Shown one piece after another: positions 2,237 to 13,562 of a stretch of 64,000 nucleotides of DNA. How positions within the stretch are numbered: position 1 is the stretch's first letter; every line of letters starts with the position of its first letter. The notes below the pieces were generated by a model. It was not told where the DNA came from. It was given only the letters and a program-made list of their open reading frames with translations, and searched no databases. This DNA comes from Akkermansia sp. (GTDB lineage Bacteria; Verrucomicrobiota; Verrucomicrobiia; Verrucomicrobiales; Akkermansiaceae), in contig JAFWYD010000008.1 of assembly GCA_017517805.1 (NCBI GenBank), forward strand, positions 62,001-126,000, given 5' to 3'. The translations under genes and the position numbers were made by a program.

Positions 2237-3769
2237 ATGGAATCGTCTCAGTATTGGTTCAATTTTTTCTGGCTTATTGCCTATTTCCTCGTTCTTGTAG
2301 GGATGTCCGGGTATGGTTGTCACCGCCTGCTCATGGTGTTTCTCTACATCCGGCATCGCAAGCATGTGCCGCAGCCGAAGGCCCAGTGGGATGAGCTGCC
2401 GGTCGTGACGATTCAGCTGCCGATGTTCAATGAGAAATTCGTGGTGGAAGGGCTGTTGAAGAAGGTGACCGCCATTGATTACCCGAAGGATAAGCTTGAG
2501 ATCCAGATTCTGGATGATTCCACCGATGATACCTACGACCTCTGCCTCCAGCAGGTGGAGTATTACAAGGCTCAGGGCTTTGATATTGTGTGCCTGCACC
2601 GCACGGACCGCACCGGGTTCAAGGCGGGTGCCCTGGAGGCGGCGGATGCCGTGGCCAAGGGTGAGTTCCTGCTGATTCTGGATGCTGATTTCCGCCCGGA
2701 GCCGGACATCCTGAAGGTATGTGTGCCTTATTTCACGGATCCGCAGATTGGTGTGGTGCAGACCCGCTGGGCTCATATCAACCGCAACTACAACCTGCTC
2801 ACTCGTTTGCAGAGTATTTTCCTGGATGGTCACTTCGCGCTGGAGCAGACTTGCCGCAACCGCTCGGGCCGCTTCTTCACCTTCAATGGTACCGCCGGTA
2901 TGTGGCGCAAGAGCACCATTATCGATGCAGGTGGCTGGGAGCACGATACCATCACCGAGGATATGGACCTTTCCTACCGCGCCCAGATGAAGGGCTGGCG
3001 TTTTGTGTACCTGAATGATTACGAAACGCCTGCCGAGCTTCCGGTGGATATGGATGGTTTCAAGGCTCAGCAGCACCGCTGGACGAAGGGCTGCATCCAG
3101 GTCTGCCAGAAGATGCTGTGGGATATCTGGCGCTCCAATGCTCCCCTCAAGGCCAAGATGGAGGCCACCACGCACCTGACCTGCAACTACTCATACCTGG
3201 CGTTGATTCTCCTTTGCTTCTTGGTGATGCCGGTGTGCACCGGCTTGGTGGCCCCCACGGGTGAGTGGGCCTGGGACCAGTGGCAGATGATGCTGCTCAC
3301 CTTCACCCTCTTCTTCTTTGCCACGGTATCAGTCTGCCTGTTCTATATTGTGGCAGAGCTGATTGTGCGTCCTCGTCGCTGGTATATGGTGTTCCCGCTG
3401 ATTATTCCGCTGCTGGCGCTGGGTGTCGGCATGGCGGTGAACAATGCCAAGGCGGTGCTTGAGGCTGTCTTTGGCCAGCAAAGTGAGTTTGTGCGCACTC
3501 CGAAGTTTGGTGAATCCAAGCAGGGCTCTCTCTCCATCGAGAAGCGCGCCAAGGGGTATAAGGCTATCAAATCCATCCTGGTGCCGGTGCTTGAGCTTTG
3601 CTTTGCTTTATTCTTCGGAGCGGTGGAGACGATCAACCTCATGCATGGTGATTACCTCACCTTCGTGCTCATGACTCCCTTCCTCGGCTTCTTCTACACG
3701 AGTATTTCCTCTTTTGCCCGCCTGATTGACGGTGCTGTGCAGAAGCGCCGCGCTGCCCGCAATGCCTGA
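2237..3769 (+). CDS. membrane family-2 glycosyltransferase, cellulose-synthase-like
   Basis: A processive-type beta-glycosyltransferase of 510 residues. One membrane segment lies near residues 8-35, a cytoplasmic GT-A domain spans about 55-290, and three or four membrane helices follow after 310. The full catalytic set is visible: DDSTDD (93-98), DAD (149-151), TED (240-242) and QQHRW (278-282), the last being the Q/RxxRW motif of polymerising enzymes. This fits cellulose synthase, mannan synthase or ceramide-glucosyltransferase-like GT2 enzymes that extend a glycan at the inner membrane. No PilZ domain or partner subunit is nearby, so the polymer is unknown. An L,D-transpeptidase gene follows 28 bases downstream and is probably co-transcribed. 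Confidence 0.88.
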   Translation: MESSQYWFNFFWLIAYFLVLVGMSGYGCHRLLMVFLYIRHRKHVPQPKAQWDELPVVTIQLPMFNEKFVVEGLLKKVTAIDYPKDKLEIQILDDSTDDTYDLCLQQVEYYKAQGFDIVCLHRTDRTGFKAGALEAADAVAKGEFLLILDADFRPEPDILKVCVPYFTDPQIGVVQTRWAHINRNYNLLTRLQSIFLDGHFALEQTCRNRSGRFFTFNGTAGMWRKSTIIDAGGWEHDTITEDMDLSYRAQMKGWRFVYLNDYETPAELPVDMDGFKAQQHRWTKGCIQVCQKMLWDIWRSNAPLKAKMEATTHLTCNYSYLALILLCFLVMPVCTGLVAPTGEWAWDQWQMMLLTFTLFFFATVSVCLFYIVAELIVRPRRWYMVFPLIIPLLALGVGMAVNNAKAVLEAVFGQQSEFVRTPKFGESKQGSLSIEKRAKGYKAIKSILVPVLELCFALFFGAVETINLMHGDYLTFVLMTPFLGFFYTSISSFARLIDGAVQKRRAARNA

Positions 3770-3797
3770 GTCTGACTATCTGCCTGTTCGACGGAGT

Positions 3798-4613
3798 ATG
3801 ATGAACCTGAGTCGCCTGACAGTTTTTGGCCTCCTGGCGCTGCTGTGCTCGGCGCTGGTGTCGTGTTCTCACTTCCGCAAGGAAAAGAAGGTGCTGTATG
3901 CGGAGGATATTCCCCCGAGATCCGTGGTGCGCGATGGTGTGGCAGTAACGCTGAGTGACCAGAAGCTCACGGTGTTCCAGGGCGGGAAGAAAGTGAAGGA
4001 TTACAGCATCAGCTCGTCCAAATTTGGTATTGGCAATAAGAATGGCAGTCACCGTACACCGCTGGGAATCCATGCGGTTTCTCAGAAGAATGGCGATGGC
4101 CAGCCCAGCGGTATGGTATTCAAGGGCTGCCGCCCCACTGGCGAGGTGGTCGATGTGGATGCCGCCGGGCGCGACCCGGTGGTGACCCGGGTGATTCAGC
4201 TCGCTGGTCTGGAGAGCGATAACCGCTCTACTCACCACCGCCGTATCTATATTCACGGCACTCCGGAGGAACGCTACATCGGCCAGCCTGCTTCCTACGG
4301 ATGCATCCGCATGAAGAGCAATGATATTGTGGATCTCTTCGGCCGGGTGCACCGCGGTATGCCGGTGGCGATTGAAAGTTGCACGCAGGAAACCTACATC
4401 AAGGCTGAGAAGGATTACACCAAGGGCAGCATCTATATCCCGAAGGAGATGGTTTCCCGGCTCCCGGTAGATGGTCTGCGACCCACGCACCGCTACCGTG
4501 CCCGGGGCGGCCGCTACAAATGGTCGCGCCGCAGCATGGCCAATACGCGATTCAAGAAACGCCGCGTGAGGGGTAAGAAACCGCGTCTGGCCTTGCGCAA
4601 GCGCGCGGCGTAA
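3798..4613 (+). CDS. L,D-transpeptidase (YkuD) lipoprotein
   Basis: Probably cross-links peptidoglycan (3-3 links) or attaches proteins to it in the periplasm. ATG-ATG at 3798/3801 is preferred to an earlier in-frame ATG at 3726, because 3726 lies inside the upstream gene and only the later start gives a signal peptide. That peptide ends in the lipobox LVSC, so the protein should be lipidated. The YkuD domain covers about residues 45-200 and contains the invariant YIHGTPEE histidine segment and SYGCIRM with the catalytic cysteine. The tail from about 225 is very basic (many Arg/Lys, AlaLysArg-rich), which may bind wall or nucleic-acid polyanions. It is one of three intact YkuD proteins in the window. 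Confidence 0.88.
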   Translation: MMNLSRLTVFGLLALLCSALVSCSHFRKEKKVLYAEDIPPRSVVRDGVAVTLSDQKLTVFQGGKKVKDYSISSSKFGIGNKNGSHRTPLGIHAVSQKNGDGQPSGMVFKGCRPTGEVVDVDAAGRDPVVTRVIQLAGLESDNRSTHHRRIYIHGTPEERYIGQPASYGCIRMKSNDIVDLFGRVHRGMPVAIESCTQETYIKAEKDYTKGSIYIPKEMVSRLPVDGLRPTHRYRARGGRYKWSRRSMANTRFKKRRVRGKKPRLALRKRAA

Positions 4614-6055: not shown

Positions 6056-7144
6056 ATGACGATGAACGAACTATCTGCTGAATTCCTGAGCGAATATCTG
6101 GAAACTCCGGCACCCACCGGGCTGGAGATGGATGCCCAGCGCCTCTGGGCTGCCTATATCAAGCCCTACACCGATGAGGTGCAGTGCGATGCCTACGGCT
6201 CCACCTGGGCGCTGCTGCGCGCTGAAGGGGAAAATGCCCCCACCCTCATGCTCGATGCACACGCCGATGAAATCGGCTTTTCCATCCGCTATATTGATGA
6301 CAACGGCTTTGCGCGCGTGGAGCGCGTGGGCGGGAGCGATGTGGCCATTGCCCGCGGCCGCCGTATCCGTTTCATTGGTACGGATGGTGAGGTGATTGGC
6401 ATCACTGGCAATACGGCCATTCATTTGCGCGGTGGAGCGGGGGATGAAAAGGCCCCCAAACTACACGAGCTGTATGTGGATTTCGGCTGCGATTCCCGCG
6501 AGGAGGTCGAGGCTCTGGGCCTCCGCGTCGGTAGCGTAGGTGTGTATTGCGATGGCCCGCTCATGCTCCATGATGGCCGCCGCCTGGTCTGCCGAGCGCT
6601 CGATGACCGCCTCTGCGGCTTCATTCTGGCAGAGGTGGCCCGCACTCTGGCCGAAAAGGGAATCAAACCCGCCTGGAATGTGGTCTTTGCCAATTCGGTG
6701 CAGGAAGAAATCGGCTGTGTGGGCGCGGGCATGCTCGCCTTCCGCCTGCAGCCCGATGCCGCTATCTGCCTGGATGTGACCCATGCCACCGATTCTCCCG
6801 GGCTGGATAAGGGACGCTATGGCGACGTGCGTCTGGGACAGGGGGCCTGCCTCAGCTATGGCCCGGTTTGCCATCCGAACCTGAATGCCCGGTTTGAACT
6901 CCTTTCCTTTGAAAAGCAGATTCCCATGCAGCGTGAGACTACGGGGCGCTCCACCGGCACCAATACCGACCAGGTTTACCGCTCCCGCAGCGGGGTGCCT
7001 GCCACCTGCTTCTCCCTTCCTTTGCGTTACATGCACAGCCCGGTCGAGACGGCCGATATGCGCGATGTGCAGAGCTGCATTGATCTCCTTGTGGCGTTTG
7101 TCGTCTCGCTCGGGTTTCAGGATGATTTCCGACACCGACTGTGA
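6056..7144 (+). CDS. M42-family metallopeptidase (FrvX/TET-like)
   Basis: A cytoplasmic di-metal aminopeptidase of the M42 clan, probably forming tetrahedral (TET) oligomers that trim peptides. All expected ligand motifs are present in order: AHADEIGF (His), RALDDRLCG (bridging Asp), NSVQEEIGCVGA (catalytic Glu plus ligand Glu), CLDVTHATD (Asp) and the C-terminal YMHSPVE histidine. 362 residues is normal for the family. The start could be the ATG at 6056 or the one at 6062 (MNEL). It lies just behind the purD terminator and is followed by a bidirectional terminator. A second M42 gene is at 12522. Confidence 0.9.
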   Translation: MTMNELSAEFLSEYLETPAPTGLEMDAQRLWAAYIKPYTDEVQCDAYGSTWALLRAEGENAPTLMLDAHADEIGFSIRYIDDNGFARVERVGGSDVAIARGRRIRFIGTDGEVIGITGNTAIHLRGGAGDEKAPKLHELYVDFGCDSREEVEALGLRVGSVGVYCDGPLMLHDGRRLVCRALDDRLCGFILAEVARTLAEKGIKPAWNVVFANSVQEEIGCVGAGMLAFRLQPDAAICLDVTHATDSPGLDKGRYGDVRLGQGACLSYGPVCHPNLNARFELLSFEKQIPMQRETTGRSTGTNTDQVYRSRSGVPATCFSLPLRYMHSPVETADMRDVQSCIDLLVAFVVSLGFQDDFRHRL

Positions 7145-7224: not shown

Positions 7225-7785
7225 TTATTCCTTGGTTACGTACAAAACGTAGTCTACTCGGTCAATCTCGGTTTCAACCTCCTGTGTCACGTTATTGGCT
7301 ATAGCTGTAAAGCTAACTTTGCCCTTCCAGTGAAGCGTGCCTGCCTTCTCATCGTAGATGAAGGTCATGGGGTCTGCAAAGTAGAGCTGAGTGATGGCAT
7401 TGTTGGTAGATACAACGCCGGTGAGAATCTGGTAGAACGCAGCGTTATCGTTGCTCACGAGTGAGGTGGGCGCGGTTGAACCTTTCAGGTAGGTGATACT
7501 GCTTGCTGATTCGTCCTCACTACCAAACTCTACGCGAGAGACATTGATAATCATCTCAGAAATCAGTGAGCCGGACTGGTCTGAGATGGTAGCCTCGTAG
7601 GCTTGATTTTTTTGTTTTTCTACGAACTTGATTTTGTAGGCACTTGCGGGACCGTTTGCTACGATTGTTGTGCCGGAAAGGTTGCCGCCACCATTGCCGC
7701 CGCCGCCACCACCACCGCAGGAGGTGAGAGCCAGACCAGTAATCATACCCGCAAGGGACATTAGTACTACAAGAATTTTTTTCAT
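7225..7785 (-). CDS. poly-glycine lipoprotein, paralogue of the 8135 gene
   Basis: A 186-residue predicted lipoprotein. The signal peptide ends in LTSC, and the lipidated cysteine is followed by seven glycines, an asparagine and three more glycines, a long flexible tether. The mature domain (about residues 40-186) looks like an all-beta fold and is clearly homologous along its length to the divergent gene at 8135. Shared blocks include GPASAYK/R, FYQILTGVVSTNNAITQL and FTAIANNVTQE. The family is not one I recognise. It has no catalytic motif and only the lipobox cysteine. The start is fixed by the signal peptide. A leader element shared with the paralogue lies 31 bases upstream of the start codon. 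Confidence 0.78.
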   Translation of the reverse strand: MKKILVVLMSLAGMITGLALTSCGGGGGGGNGGGNLSGTTIVANGPASAYKIKFVEKQKNQAYEATISDQSGSLISEMIINVSRVEFGSEDESASSITYLKGSTAPTSLVSNDNAAFYQILTGVVSTNNAITQLYFADPMTFIYDEKAGTLHWKGKVSFTAIANNVTQEVETEIDRVDYVLYVTKE

Positions 7786-7816
7786 ATCGTGTTGTTCAGG
7801 TCAAATTTTCAGCTTG

Positions 7817-7833
7817 TCAGCCTTAGTGATGCT
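7817..7833 (-). repeat. shared 17-base leader element, copy 1
   Basis: On the minus strand this reads AGCATCACTAAGGCTGA, 31 bases upstream of the 7785 start codon. It is identical to copy 2 and in the same orientation relative to its gene. A CATG tetramer also precedes both copies, so the homology extends a little further upstream. Confidence 0.85.
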
Positions 7834-8074
7834 GTAGACATGAATGATGAATGTTCTGATGGTAAGGCGTTACGATGCTTGCAGAGTGATTTTGGTAGAA
7901 ATTACGAGTCAAAAAAATGATATCGTTCTGTATTGCCTGAAAGACATCCTTTGCTTCTCATATTGAGAAAATTTTTAATTTTTACACAGTAATACATTGA
8001 CTTTCTGTATTTTATATACAAAAACAAAAATGCATCACTTTTTTCTTGCTTTCTAACGGCCTCATGATAAACTA

Positions 8075-8091
8075 AGCATCACTAAGGCTGA
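8075..8091 (+). repeat. shared 17-base leader element, copy 2
   Basis: AGCATCACTAAGGCTGA on the plus strand, 43 bases upstream of the 8135 start codon and just downstream of a possible -10 box (TAAACT). It is probably in the transcribed leader. It may be an operator or RNA-level control site, or simply a remnant of the gene duplication. Confidence 0.85.
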
Positions 8092-8134
8092 TGACATCGT
8101 GGCTTTCACCTTAAATTAATACTATTTACGAATT

Positions 8135-8692
8135 ATGAAAAAATTCCTCTTTACTGTGGCGGCTGTTCTGGGCTTGGTTACCGGGTTGACTCTCACCTCC
8201 TGCGGTGGTGGTGGCGGTGGCGGCGGCGCTGCTGCTAACCTTTCGGGTATCACTATTTCGGCAAATGGTCCGGCCAGCACGTATCGCGTTCGCCTTGTAG
8301 AGCGCCAGAAAGGTACTGCTTATAGTGCGCTTATCATGGATGGTGCTGGTCGCAATGTTTCTCAGATGACGATTAATGTGACTGATGTGCGCATGGCCTC
8401 CGAGGATAAGGGTGCAGATGTTGTCTATCTTGAAGGCTCTGCCGCTCCTGATTCTCTGGAGCCGTCGGACAATAAAACCTTCTATCAGATCCTGAGTGGT
8501 ATTGTTTCTACCAATAATGCCATTACGCAGCTGTGGTTCCCTGAGCCTATGAGCTTTGTTTTCGACGGCGATAAGCAAACGATTCATTGGAAGGGTAAAA
8601 TCGCCTTTAAGGCTATTGCAAATAACGTAACTCAGGAAAGCGAGGAAGAGATTGATCGTACCGATTCTGTCCTGTTTGTGGAACGTATCTGA
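8135..8692 (+). CDS. poly-glycine lipoprotein, paralogue of the 7225 gene
   Basis: A 185-residue predicted lipoprotein with the lipobox LTSC, followed by eight glycines and three alanines. The remainder aligns end to end with the divergent neighbour. It keeps ISANGPASTYRVRLVE, the FYQILSGIVSTNNAITQLWF block and the IHWKGKIAFKAIANNVTQE block. Divergence is spread evenly, so both copies look functional. The divergent arrangement with duplicated leader elements points to an inverted gene duplication under common control. Function is unknown; a surface-exposed beta-domain is a reasonable inference. A hairpin follows the stop codon. Confidence 0.78.
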   Translation: MKKFLFTVAAVLGLVTGLTLTSCGGGGGGGGAAANLSGITISANGPASTYRVRLVERQKGTAYSALIMDGAGRNVSQMTINVTDVRMASEDKGADVVYLEGSAAPDSLEPSDNKTFYQILSGIVSTNNAITQLWFPEPMSFVFDGDKQTIHWKGKIAFKAIANNVTQESEEEIDRTDSVLFVERI

Positions 8693-8808: not shown

Positions 8809-9930
8809 TTATTTGGAGACGTTGAAGCGGAATTCGACTACATCGCCATCCTGCACCACATATTCCTTGCCTTCGATGCGGAGTTTGGCTTGCTCCTTGG
8901 CCTTGGCGAGGGAGCCTGCGGCTACCAGGTCTTCGTAGGCAACGACCTGGGCTGCGATGAAGCCACGCTCAAAGTCGGTGTGGATGACACCCGCTGCCCG
9001 GGGGGCCTTATCCCCGGCGTGGATGGTCCAGGCTTTGGTTTCCTTCACCCCGGTGGTGAGGTAGGTGCGGAGGCCGAGCAGGTGGTAGACGGAGCGGATG
9101 AGGTCGCTCACACCGGAATCTTCCACGCCGATATCATTGAGGTACTCGCGGGCTTCAGCGGGATCGAGCTCCGAGAGTTCTTCCTCAATGCGGGCGGAGA
9201 TGACGATGGCTTCCGCATGGTGGTGTTCTGCCACATATTTGCGAACGGCAGAGACGTAGGGGTGGGAGTCCGGGTCCTTGACGGCATCGGCCAGCTCTTC
9301 TTCGCTGACGTTGCAGGCAAAGATGCTCTTCTTATCAGAGAGCAGGAAGAAGGTGTGCAGGAGCTTGCGCTCGTCATCGCTGAGCTCCAGGGTGATAGCC
9401 GGGTTGCCGGCATCCAGATGCGGGAGGAGTTTTTCGATGAGTGCGACTTCGGCCTTGGCTTCCTTATCGCCACCGCGTGCTTTCTTGATGCGGCTTTCCT
9501 TGCGCTTCTCCATGGCGGCAAGGTCGGCGAGGATGAGCTCGGCATTGATGATTTCGATATCACGCACCGGGTCCACGGAGCCGAGTTCGTGGATGATGTC
9601 ATCGTTTTCAAAGCAGCGTACCACCTGGACGATGGCATCAGTCTCGCGGATATTGGAAAGGAACTTGTTACCAAGACCGGCACCTTCGGCTGCACCTTTG
9701 ACCAGCCCTGCAATATCGACAAACTCAATGGCTGCGGGGACAATGCGCTCGCTCTTGCTCATTTCAGCCAGCACGGCCAGGCGTGCATCCGGCACTTCGA
9801 CCATGCCCACATTCGGGTCGATGGTGCAGAAGGGATAGTTGGCTGCCTCAGCCTTGCGGGAGCGGGTGACTGCGTTGAAAAGGGTGGATTTGCCTACGTT
9901 CGGGAGTCCTACAATACCTGCCTGTAACAT
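8809..9930 (-). CDS. ychF: YchF/Obg-like ATPase
   Basis: A TRAFAC P-loop NTPase that prefers ATP and associates with ribosomes and stress responses. The G1 motif GLPNVGKSTLFNAVT is near the N-terminus. After it come the DIAGLV switch-II segment with KGAAEGAGLGNKFL, a coiled-coil insertion around residues 120-200, NVSEEEL, and a C-terminal TGS domain (GDKAPRAAGVIHTDFERGFIAA). The start is set at 9930 (373 residues). The earlier in-frame ATG at 9942 lies inside the predicted -10 box and cannot be on the message. The hydrophobic GIVGLPNVGKS strand then begins a few residues in, as in other YchF proteins. Confidence 0.96.
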   Translation of the reverse strand: MLQAGIVGLPNVGKSTLFNAVTRSRKAEAANYPFCTIDPNVGMVEVPDARLAVLAEMSKSERIVPAAIEFVDIAGLVKGAAEGAGLGNKFLSNIRETDAIVQVVRCFENDDIIHELGSVDPVRDIEIINAELILADLAAMEKRKESRIKKARGGDKEAKAEVALIEKLLPHLDAGNPAITLELSDDERKLLHTFFLLSDKKSIFACNVSEEELADAVKDPDSHPYVSAVRKYVAEHHHAEAIVISARIEEELSELDPAEAREYLNDIGVEDSGVSDLIRSVYHLLGLRTYLTTGVKETKAWTIHAGDKAPRAAGVIHTDFERGFIAAQVVAYEDLVAAGSLAKAKEQAKLRIEGKEYVVQDGDVVEFRFNVSK

Positions 9931-9940
9931 AACGGGGCTC

Positions 9941-9969
9941 ATTCTACACGAATGCCGTCACACGCGCAA
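9941..9969 (-). promoter_or_regulatory. ychF promoter, predicted near-leaderless
   Basis: On the minus strand: TTGCGC (9969-9964), 17 bases, TAGAAT (9946-9941), then ten bases to the ATG at 9930. The TAGAAT box itself contains the first two bases of the upstream ATG at 9942, which rules that start out. Confidence 0.65.
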
Positions 9970-11100: not shown

Positions 11101-11706
11101 ATGAAACATTTTATTTTTCTACCCATTGTCGCTGCGATGGCGCTGACTTCGTGTGTCCCGTCCTTTCATTCGCCGGATGAATTGGCACAGATGGCTGCCG
11201 GGTATGCTTTTGCCCGCCCGAAAAACAAGATGAATGTGACTGAATCGGTGAGTGTGGGGCAGTGGGATGTTCCTTATGGGCTGGATGGCCCCCGCAGGAT
11301 TGTGATTGATACGAATCTGCAGAAGGCTTATTATTATATCGCAGGTCGTCAGGTGGGATGGAGTACGATATCTTCCGGCAAGGCCGGGAAGGATACCCCC
11401 AAGGGGATATTCACGATTCTGGATAAGGACGAGGACCACATTTCCTCGACTTATGGCAGTGTAGTGGATGCCGATGGCAACACATTGATTGCCAATTATA
11501 CAAAGGGTGAGCCTATGCCGCCCGGGGGAATTTACCAGGGGGCTCCCATGACTTGCGGTATGCAGTTGACCTGGAGTGGAATATGGATGCATGAGGGTAT
11601 TGTGACCTCGGCTCCGGAAAGCCACGGTTGTATCCGCCTGCCCAAGCGGATGGCTAAGATTTTCTTTGATAATACCCCCGTGGGAACTCCCGTGGAAATC
11701 AAGTGA
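11101..11706 (+). CDS. L,D-transpeptidase (YkuD) lipoprotein
   Basis: A 201-residue protein with lipobox LTSC at residues 15-18. The YkuD domain spans roughly residues 60-200: IVIDTNLQKAYYYIAGRQV, then the TPKGIFTILDKDE core, WMHEGIVT with the conserved histidine, and ESHGCIRLPKRMAKIFF with the active-site cysteine. It probably makes 3-3 peptidoglycan cross-links, or tethers a lipoprotein, at the outer leaflet of the inner membrane or the periplasmic face of the outer membrane. The next L,D-transpeptidase starts one base after its stop codon, so the two form a tandem, co-transcribed pair. Confidence 0.9.
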   Translation: MKHFIFLPIVAAMALTSCVPSFHSPDELAQMAAGYAFARPKNKMNVTESVSVGQWDVPYGLDGPRRIVIDTNLQKAYYYIAGRQVGWSTISSGKAGKDTPKGIFTILDKDEDHISSTYGSVVDADGNTLIANYTKGEPMPPGGIYQGAPMTCGMQLTWSGIWMHEGIVTSAPESHGCIRLPKRMAKIFFDNTPVGTPVEIK

Positions 11707-11707
11707 T

Positions 11708-12463
11708 ATGCGCGCGATGAGAAAAGTTTGTTGTGTGCTGCCGGGGGCTTTGCTTGCCATGCTGCTGGTATCGTGTACCCAGCAGCAGTACCAGCCACCT
11801 GCGCGGGTGGCAGCCGTATCGTCCAGTTGGACCCCCTATGAGAAATTTGTGAATGGGTGCAAATCCTACCCCACGGTGATGGAGATGTACATGGATAAAA
11901 ACCTCCTGGCTGAGGCTGATAAGAACAGCATCGTGGTAATCAGCCTCAGGCAGCAGCGAGGCCGCCTGTATGTGAAGGACAAGGTGGCTGCAGACTGGCC
12001 GGTTTCAACCGGTGTGGATAAGCACCCCACCCCTACTGGTCGCTACCGCGTGCGGTTCAAGTCGAAGGAGTATGCTTCCAACCGCTACGGAAAGATGTAT
12101 GATGCCAAGGGGCGCTGCATCAATGCCAATGCCGATGCTTTTACGGAGACGGTGCCGGAAGGCGGCCGCTTCGAGGGTTCTCCGATGCCGAATTGGATGC
12201 GTCTTACCTTTGACGGCATCGGGATGCATACAGGTAAGGTGAAGGCTGGTCAGCGGTTATCGCATGGCTGCATCCGCCTGCCGCATGTTGTTTCCACGAT
12301 GCTGTTTGATATTGTGGAATATGGAACCCGGGTGGTTATTTATCCGGAGCTGGAGCCGGAGTACCCCGTGGCTGAAATGGTGGCACGGCGTGAGATTGAG
12401 GAAGCTGAGTGGAAAGCCCGGCAAAATCTTTCTGCCGCACAGTCTGCTTCTGGTGCAGAATAG
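11708..12463 (+). CDS. L,D-transpeptidase (YkuD) lipoprotein
   Basis: A 251-residue protein from the ATG at 11708; an ATG at 11717 is also possible. An upstream in-frame ATG at 11666 lies inside the preceding gene and would spoil the signal peptide. The lipobox is LVSC. The YkuD domain (about residues 70-205) includes IVVISLRQQRGRLYVKD, the HPTPTGRYRVRFK strand, GIGMHTGKV with the conserved histidine, and SHGCIRLPHVV with the catalytic cysteine. An acidic tail follows. Its sequence differs enough from the upstream copy to suggest a different acceptor or partner rather than a fresh duplication. Confidence 0.9.
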   Translation: MRAMRKVCCVLPGALLAMLLVSCTQQQYQPPARVAAVSSSWTPYEKFVNGCKSYPTVMEMYMDKNLLAEADKNSIVVISLRQQRGRLYVKDKVAADWPVSTGVDKHPTPTGRYRVRFKSKEYASNRYGKMYDAKGRCINANADAFTETVPEGGRFEGSPMPNWMRLTFDGIGMHTGKVKAGQRLSHGCIRLPHVVSTMLFDIVEYGTRVVIYPELEPEYPVAEMVARREIEEAEWKARQNLSAAQSASGAE

Positions 12464-12486
12464 CCCGGAGTTCCGGGTATTTGTGC

Positions 12487-12515
12487 TTGCTCCTGCGAGG
12501 GGTAGTGTGTAGAAT
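12487..12515 (+). promoter_or_regulatory. promoter of the second M42 peptidase gene, predicted leaderless
   Basis: TTGCTC (12487-12492), 17 bases, TAGAAT (12510-12515), then six bases (AGCCTC) to the ATG at 12522. Both boxes are identical to those of the purD promoter. Confidence 0.65.
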
Positions 12516-12521
12516 AGCCTC

Positions 12522-13562
12522 ATGCTGAACAGAGATTTGCTTGAACGTTGCAGCAATGCTGCGGGGGCTTCCGGGTTTGAGGATGAGGTGCGCCAGCTTA
12601 TCGCGCAGGAGCTGGAGGATTGCTGTGATATAACTGAGACAGTTTCGGGTAATCTGGTTTGCCAGTTGAAGGGGGGTGCTGGCGGTCCTGTGGTGGCTCT
12701 CCTGGCGCATATGGATGAGGTTGGGTTCATGGTGCAGGGGATTACGCCAGATGGCTTCTTGCTGATAGTGACGCTGGGTGGCTGGTGGAATCATACATTG
12801 CCCAGCCAGCGGGTGCTGGTGCACACGCGCGATGGTCGCCGCATTCCCGGGCAGATAGGGACGAGACCGCCGCACCTCCTGCCAGAGGGGCAGCGCCGGC
12901 AGGTGATGGAGACGGAATCGCTCTTCATTGATATTGGAGCTTCCAGCGCTGAGGAGGTGGAGGCCTGTGGTATCCGCATCGGCTGCGCGGTGACACCGGA
13001 TGTGACCTTGCAGCCCCTGGAGCTTCCGCACCGTTGGATGGGGAAGGCTTTTGATAACCGCGCCGGAGTCTACTGCATGATTGAGGTGATGCGCCGCCTG
13101 GCGGGTGAGCCGTTGGAATGCACCTTGCAGGCTATTGGTACGGTGCAGGAGGAAGTGGGTACCCGCGGCGCCCGCGCGTTGGAGCAGACCCCGGATCTGG
13201 CGATTGTGCTGGAGGGACCACCTGCGGATGATACTTTCGGGCAGAGTGGAATCTGCCGCCAGGGTGTGCTGGGCAAGGGGGTGCAGGTGCGTTTGTTTGA
13301 CCCGACTAATATCACTCCGCCGGCGCTGGTCGATATGGTGCTGGGGCTTGCCGAGCGGGAAGAGATTGACTGCCAGCCGACGGTGCGCCGAACTGGTGGA
13401 ACGGATGCTGCCGCCAGTTACCCGCATTGGTATGGTTGCCCGGCGATTGTGTTCGGGGTGCCGGTGCGCTACATTCATTCGCACAATGGAATTCTGGATG
13501 ACCGCGACCTGGAGGCCTGCATTGAACTGACCTGCGCGCTGGTGCGCAATGTGAGCAAATGA
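12522..13562 (+). CDS. M42-family metallopeptidase with altered ligand motif
   Basis: A 346-residue M42 peptidase homologue. The motifs LLAHMDEVGF, GKAFDNRAG, GTVQEEVGTRGA and the terminal YIHSHNG supply the expected His, bridging Asp, Glu pair and His. The usual LDV...D metal-ligand segment is replaced here by VLEGPPADDTFGQ, with Glu at the ligand position. The RRTGGTDA segment near the end is typical. The 6056 paralogue keeps the aspartate, so the two may differ in metal or substrate. The gene overlaps the next one by four bases (ATGA), so the peptidase and the membrane protein are translationally coupled. The start follows directly after a -10 box. Confidence 0.88.
   Translation: MLNRDLLERCSNAAGASGFEDEVRQLIAQELEDCCDITETVSGNLVCQLKGGAGGPVVALLAHMDEVGFMVQGITPDGFLLIVTLGGWWNHTLPSQRVLVHTRDGRRIPGQIGTRPPHLLPEGQRRQVMETESLFIDIGASSAEEVEACGIRIGCAVTPDVTLQPLELPHRWMGKAFDNRAGVYCMIEVMRRLAGEPLECTLQAIGTVQEEVGTRGARALEQTPDLAIVLEGPPADDTFGQSGICRQGVLGKGVQVRLFDPTNITPPALVDMVLGLAEREEIDCQPTVRRTGGTDAAASYPHWYGCPAIVFGVPVRYIHSHNGILDDRDLEACIELTCALVRNVSK

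Follow-up and report, generated by a model that had tools for sequence, protein, structure and literature searches.

A putative hypervariable lipoprotein site in Akkermansia, with two divergent genes and one recognizable promoter

The described systems that come closest to the locus considered here are found in mycoplasmas, in ureaplasmas, and in Akkermansia itself. In the Vpma system of Mycoplasma agalactiae, as set out in the available portion of its description (PMC2268961), there is one promoter for several lipoprotein genes, the others being without a promoter; putative recombination sites lie in the 5′ UTR (−1 to −72), a T-tract sits at the promoter, a recombinase gene, xer1, lies within the locus, and switching is proven. 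In Ureaplasma, according to excerpts of PMC3047005, the opposed membrane-protein genes UU172 and mba carry inverted repeats in the 5′ coding region and spacer, and their alternate expression through DNA inversion has been demonstrated. For Akkermansia muciniphila, the accessible parts of two papers describe invertons, namely the cps1 capsule switch (PMC13343947) and group 138, near autotransporter genes (PMC11892184), with CGGATT..AATCCG as the inverton motif and one published example with 17-bp arms (PMC13343947, PMC11892184).

Here, we take up a single question within a window of 64,000 nucleotides, by which we mean the whole stretch of DNA that was analyzed (on contig C53 of G000, a genome in 91 contigs): what does it mean that two lipoprotein genes reading away from each other stand behind the same 17 bases? 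The original prediction saw those bases as a leader element. What it overlooked is that the copies of the 17-mer are inverted relative to each other, and that the repeat adjoins the −10 box of a single promoter, one that only one of the two genes has. The observation belongs to a larger hypervariable site, whose two genes have in common one promoter and a 5′ block that bears the marks of recombination. The best explanation that we can offer is a recombination-driven promoter switch between the two genes, and we would put its chances just short of even.

A divergent pair and its shared 5′ block

The two lipoprotein ORFs, LPa (7225–7785, minus strand, 186 aa) and LPb (8135–8692, plus strand, 185 aa), are 58% identical across 185 aa (E 8e-75). 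They stand between a gene of the M42 glutamyl aminopeptidase family (6056–7144, plus strand; PF05343, E 1e-73) and the gene for the YchF GTPase (8809–9942, minus strand; PF06071, E 3e-36), both of which are neighbors in relatives as well. The window also has three YkuD L,D-transpeptidase genes inside 9 kb (3726–4613, 11101–11706, and 11666–12463). That LPa and LPb are divergent paralogs, each with an exact copy of the leader 17-mer, was correctly predicted: AGCATCACTAAGGCTGA stands at 7817–7833 on the minus strand and at 8075–8091 on the plus strand, and counting on the sequence puts it 31 bases from the ATG of LPa and 43 bases from that of LPb, just as claimed. The predicted cysteine with its seven or eight glycines is there too, as LTSC followed by 7 Gly in LPa and by 8 Gly in LPb.

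Because LPa and LPb are divergent, the two copies of the 17-mer form an inverted repeat. It is the longest exact one in the 349-bp intergenic region, where 150 dinucleotide shuffles gave a maximum of 12 bp and none attained 17 bp, and its arms enclose a spacer of 241 bp (7834–8074; GC 0.32, AT-rich), the putative invertible segment; exact arms around a short segment are one of the marks of an inverton. The longest exact inverted match between LPa and LPb is not the leader at all; it is a 28-nt stretch of lipobox and poly-Gly codons (7703–7730, minus strand, and 8190–8217, plus strand). The genome-wide search that had been proposed for the 17-mer found AGCATCACTAAGGCTGA at 10 places in G000 at ≤3 mismatches. 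It is exact only at the two leaders, with 2 mismatches in the best other match, and the idea of a genome-wide 17-mer regulon was dropped for that reason. The 17-mer also matches exactly, once each, in 4 viral contigs, which we judged to be chance given the size of the collection. The element in perfect-palindrome form upstream of ATGAARAA occurs in 0 of 76 genomes, which means that perfect dyad symmetry is not general.

What of the sequence on either side of the lipobox? Three genomes have two full-length lipoprotein genes (G000, G038, and G011), and their silent third positions can be compared. In the signal-peptide block, these positions agree at 11/15 in G000, 21/24 in G038, and 15/19 in G011; in the mature part, they agree at 31/89, 12/38, and 11/46, respectively, which gives 47/58 vs. 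54/173 when the three genomes are pooled (Fisher 3e-11). The G038 pair has inverted arms that agree at 95% over 148 nt covering leader and signal peptide, 5′ UTRs that differ by one indel, first 81 coding bases that differ by 4, and mature domains that are 22% identical. Silent agreement of signal peptides between genomes is 599/1051 across 63 pairs. The G038 pair lies above all of these. Of the 63, 2 do as well as the G011 pair or better, and 7 do so for the G000 pair; the silent-site evidence is therefore modest for the window's own pair. The original prediction offered selection (an operator or RNA-level control) or recent conversion as reasons for the conserved leader. The pooled silent sites favor a recombination-type cause, and RNA-level control is not supported, since the folds of three leaders are not superior to those of dinucleotide-shuffled sequences (z 0.83, 0.47, and 1.89). 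We come to the operator below.

The proteins themselves have a signal peptide and a lipobox cysteine (the lipobox being recognized by eye), and S-C-G-G-G is invariant in 11 aligned members, among which the poly-Gly run directly after the cysteine, a possible surface-sorting feature or spacer in the original prediction, varies from 3 to 8 Gly. For LPb, AlphaFold2 predicts a beta-rich mature domain (pLDDT 80, pTM 0.73), whereas the greater part of the signal peptide and of the glycine run falls below pLDDT 50. Foldseek against the PDB gave no match at E up to 0.001; the top matches in VIA were a MoaF-type protein (4q51, Z 9.9) and phenolic acid decarboxylases (Z 9.8), with 109 residues at rmsd 3.4. 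The modeled mature domain would fit a calycin-like barrel, a likeness that may be just a common arrangement. Poly-glycine-tethered surface lipoproteins are familiar from TbpB and fHbp, in which the lipobox precedes a glycine-rich stretch and the barrel domains are variable from strain to strain; no sequence relation of LPa or LPb to these was found.

Searches for a family name came to little. No Pfam family was found at E 0.05 in any of the 11 members, and three families that each matched 1 of the 11 at E ~0.08 were taken as noise. The NCBIfam models fusolisin and invert_tail cover the signal peptide and poly-Gly, below their curated cut-offs; a sequence search of the PDB brought up weak matches to antibodies (best E 0.037), and a 28-residue match in Bosea lupini was set aside as low-complexity. 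No sign of phage origin appeared, either by tblastn in 50,697 phage records or by profile in viral contigs.

One promoter-like site for two genes

The arm upstream of LPb begins 2 bases past a −10 box. This box belongs to a promoter-like site (8046–8073, plus strand) made up of TTGCTT (8046–8051), 16 bases, and TAAACT (8068–8073), with a T-tract in front, and the arrangement of T-tract and TTGCTT-16-TAAACT also precedes the lipoprotein gene at the locus in seven other species. A promoter matrix built from 7 other species, with the window's own site left out, placed the LPb site first among 127,928 window positions at 35.5 bits; by the same matrix, the best site upstream of LPa scored −17.6, a value reached or exceeded at 483 window positions. 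In other words, LPa has the arm and is, by this measure, without a recognizable promoter in its present orientation. A scan for the sigma-70 consensus was uninformative as promoter evidence (2 found vs. 2.1 expected) and was discarded.

Across 11 close genomes, the promoter pattern was matched 15 times, in 10 of them. Seven of these matches lie elsewhere; the other 8 belong to the lipoprotein locus, with one each in 8 of the 9 close genomes where a lipoprotein is present. In G011, the pattern was sought at both lipoprotein genes and none was found; upstream of one of the two, 443 bp remain before the contig ends. When 12 leaders are aligned, the promoter is absent from four (LPa of G000, G038_1, G011_1, and G011_2), and these resemble the rest only from about the end of the −10 box onward. 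An outward promoter within the segment, another mark of an inverton, is predicted here by sequence comparison, and inverting the spacer in silico creates a complete promoter upstream of LPa, at the identical position relative to the 17-mer.

The mature part of LPa differs from that of LPb at pS 0.88 and pN 0.31. With silent sites saturated and both proteins nonetheless kept, LPa cannot be taken for a dead copy. By this pattern of substitution, the LPa protein is evidently under purifying selection, although it lacks a recognizable promoter.

The M42–YchF site in related genomes

The close genomes compared were G000, G005, G010, G011, G012, G018, G021, G027, G036, G038, and G101. Their flanking genes are 91–98% identical, and their mature lipoproteins are often unalignable. 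The M42 gene of the relatives is 91–94% identical to the window's, that of G021 being incomplete at a contig end. A lipoprotein is found at the site in 9 of the 11; in G021 the site lies at a contig end, and in G010 no lipoprotein is found at the site, 78 bp leading from M42 to YchF. Four genomes (G005, G012, G036, and G101) have one lipoprotein gene each, in the same direction as M42. G018 has one, with a promoter, reading toward M42, and another ORF before YchF. Divergent pairs are found in G000, G027, and G038, and G011 has one gene toward M42 and another between dus and YchF; here the site has undergone rearrangement of a larger kind. Mature domains of G038, G101, and G011, which share 92–93% of M42 nucleotides, align between genomes at Z −1.6 to 4.2; among LPa, LPb, and the G027 gene, Z is 34 to 41. 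As the genomes compare, the predicted role of the stretch between the M42 peptidase and YchF is that of a hypervariable lipoprotein expression site.

Of 76 genomes in the genus, 31 contain relatives according to a family profile. A member adjoins M42 or YchF in nine genomes beyond the close ones (G003, G007, G009, G019, G023, G035, G107, G109, and G110), and the family therefore appears to have long resided at this site; we read the divergent pair as a probable derived state. Of 18 loci scanned for lipoprotein starts, 7 gave one, and these 7 were the ones read.

Some details of individual genomes are worth recording in their own right. The ORF of G018 between lipoprotein gene and YchF (L027:322–1881) encodes 519 aa that may resemble AlbA-type ATP-binding regulators. 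In G011, L055:14990–15330 looks by eye like the 3′ part of a third family gene, on the minus strand, downstream of YchF and near the contig end. In G027, the second lipoprotein copy (L024:4880–5471) is a pseudogene, frameshifted and without an ATG, followed by an inverted copy of YchF's last codons fused to the end of M42; simple inverted duplication therefore happens at this site. The spacer of the G038 pair contains a 27-nt hairpin repeat, with similar sequence ~5 kb off (L025:7638–7708 and 12415–13041), which we judged from near-identical translated stretches to be a probable dispersed repeat. The contig breaks off within the site or next to it in 5 of the 11 close genomes (G011, G012, G018, G021, and G027), for which repeats or population variation may be responsible. 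A well-conserved 153-aa CGGG lipoprotein with a weak match to the family profile occurs away from M42 and YchF in G056, G099, G046, and G097 (L105, L106, L108, and L112). Finally, the YchF match has one internal stop in 14 genomes (G004, G015, G017, G037, G046, G048, G052, G053, G056, G097, G098, G099, G100, and G113).

A promoter switch, its rivals, and its described counterparts

How might a switch work? The inverted arms would recombine and flip the spacer between them, so that the single promoter would drive LPa in one orientation and LPb in the other. Recombination between the arms, or gene conversion, would keep the 5′ blocks alike while the mature domains were left free to diverge. The cell would thereby switch from one lipid-anchored, beta-barrel-like domain on a glycine tether to an alternative one.

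The rival that survives best, unlikely as we think it, is a static inverted duplication, in which occasional gene conversion keeps the 5′ ends alike, the promoter is fixed, and LPa either has some other promoter or is hardly expressed. The promoter points to the YchF-side gene in all three pairs where a promoter is visible (G000, G027, and G038, at one genome per species), none of them flipped, and it likewise reads toward the YchF side in four single-gene species. The arms in G000 are short (just 17 bp and a diverged stretch), and LPa might have its own promoter, to judge from a TTGACT that follows a T-tract 99–136 bases upstream and is without a good −10. It is because no flipped pair was seen, no PF00589 match lies on the contig, the recent inverted duplication in G027 carried the YchF tail and then decayed, and LPa has its TTGACT that we leave the static pair the standing it has. 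Against it, LPa is not decaying: it is 55% identical to the G027 gene (LPb is 52%), with the saturated silent sites and kept protein already described. Moreover, the homology of promoterless leaders begins at one common point in G000, G038, and G011.

The one part of the selective account that keeps a claim is an operator, or an element at the start site, under selection in LPa and LPb because it co-regulates them, and we consider it improbable. The 17-mer does span the predicted start region of LPb, just downstream of 8073, and lies at a similar distance upstream of both genes, and a related AGC.TTAGTAAGGC-like stretch holds its place in the leaders of G038 and G011. The genome has no further near copy, however; four single-gene relatives have the right half alone (AGTAAGGC), the left half being missing, and the G018 leader retains even less. 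An operator would also leave the 28-nt coding match and the 148-nt arms of G038 unexplained, and no RNA fold is evident in the three leaders that were folded. We regard an operator or RNA reading of the leader as less likely than the recombination-driven promoter switch. The 91 contigs of G000 and the contig ends at the site might suggest an artefact, with a metagenome-type assembly having produced a chimera or collapsed a variant, but this is scarcely credible, with divergent copies on a single contig in two other genomes and with LPa and LPb differing at 42% of residues, which means that they are not one gene assembled twice.

If the promoter does flip, the bacterium switches a lipid-anchored protein of the surface type, a switch that would be useful in niche variation or against phages or immunity, and close species have unrelated mature domains at a fixed site marked by the family. 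There would then be a simple, PCR-testable handle on Akkermansia-like envelope variation against phages or host immunity, reaching past the capsule switch already described. Searches of the literature on Akkermansia invertible promoters, phase and antigenic variation, and lipoproteins, with few subscription journals covered, brought up no account that we recognized as being of this locus.

So far as the partial accounts of the known systems allow, each resembles the present locus in some ways and departs from it in others. Like the Akkermansia invertons, it has a promoter segment that is enclosed by short inverted repeats and adjoins surface-type genes; unlike them, it has other arms, its segment lies between two paralogous genes, and CGGATT..AATCCG (exact, with a 5-base gap) is absent from G000, one of the 11 genomes having a copy. 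Like UU172 and mba, LPa and LPb are opposed, with inverted repeats in 5′ coding region and spacer; the repeats and proteins are unrelated, and the inversion demonstrated there is inferred here. With Vpma, the M42–YchF locus shares a single promoter, a T-tract, a 5′ UTR repeat, and a promoterless partner; in loci of the Vpma/vsp type, as here, one promoter and a common 5′ region go with more than one lipoprotein gene. It differs in having two genes per locus, in its unrelated organism, in a switch that is putative here, and in the lack of a nearby recombinase gene of the tyrosine type (10 PF00589 matches in G000, none on C53). A two-state flip that alternates two hypervariable poly-Gly lipoproteins, with leader and signal peptide as its arm and no relation to the published Akkermansia inverton motif, would be a mycoplasma-style variable-lipoprotein system in the Verrucomicrobiota, and from one close species to another its mature-domain cassettes would be exchanged as well, always at one chromosomal position; we put this forward tentatively, with rather more doubt than confidence.
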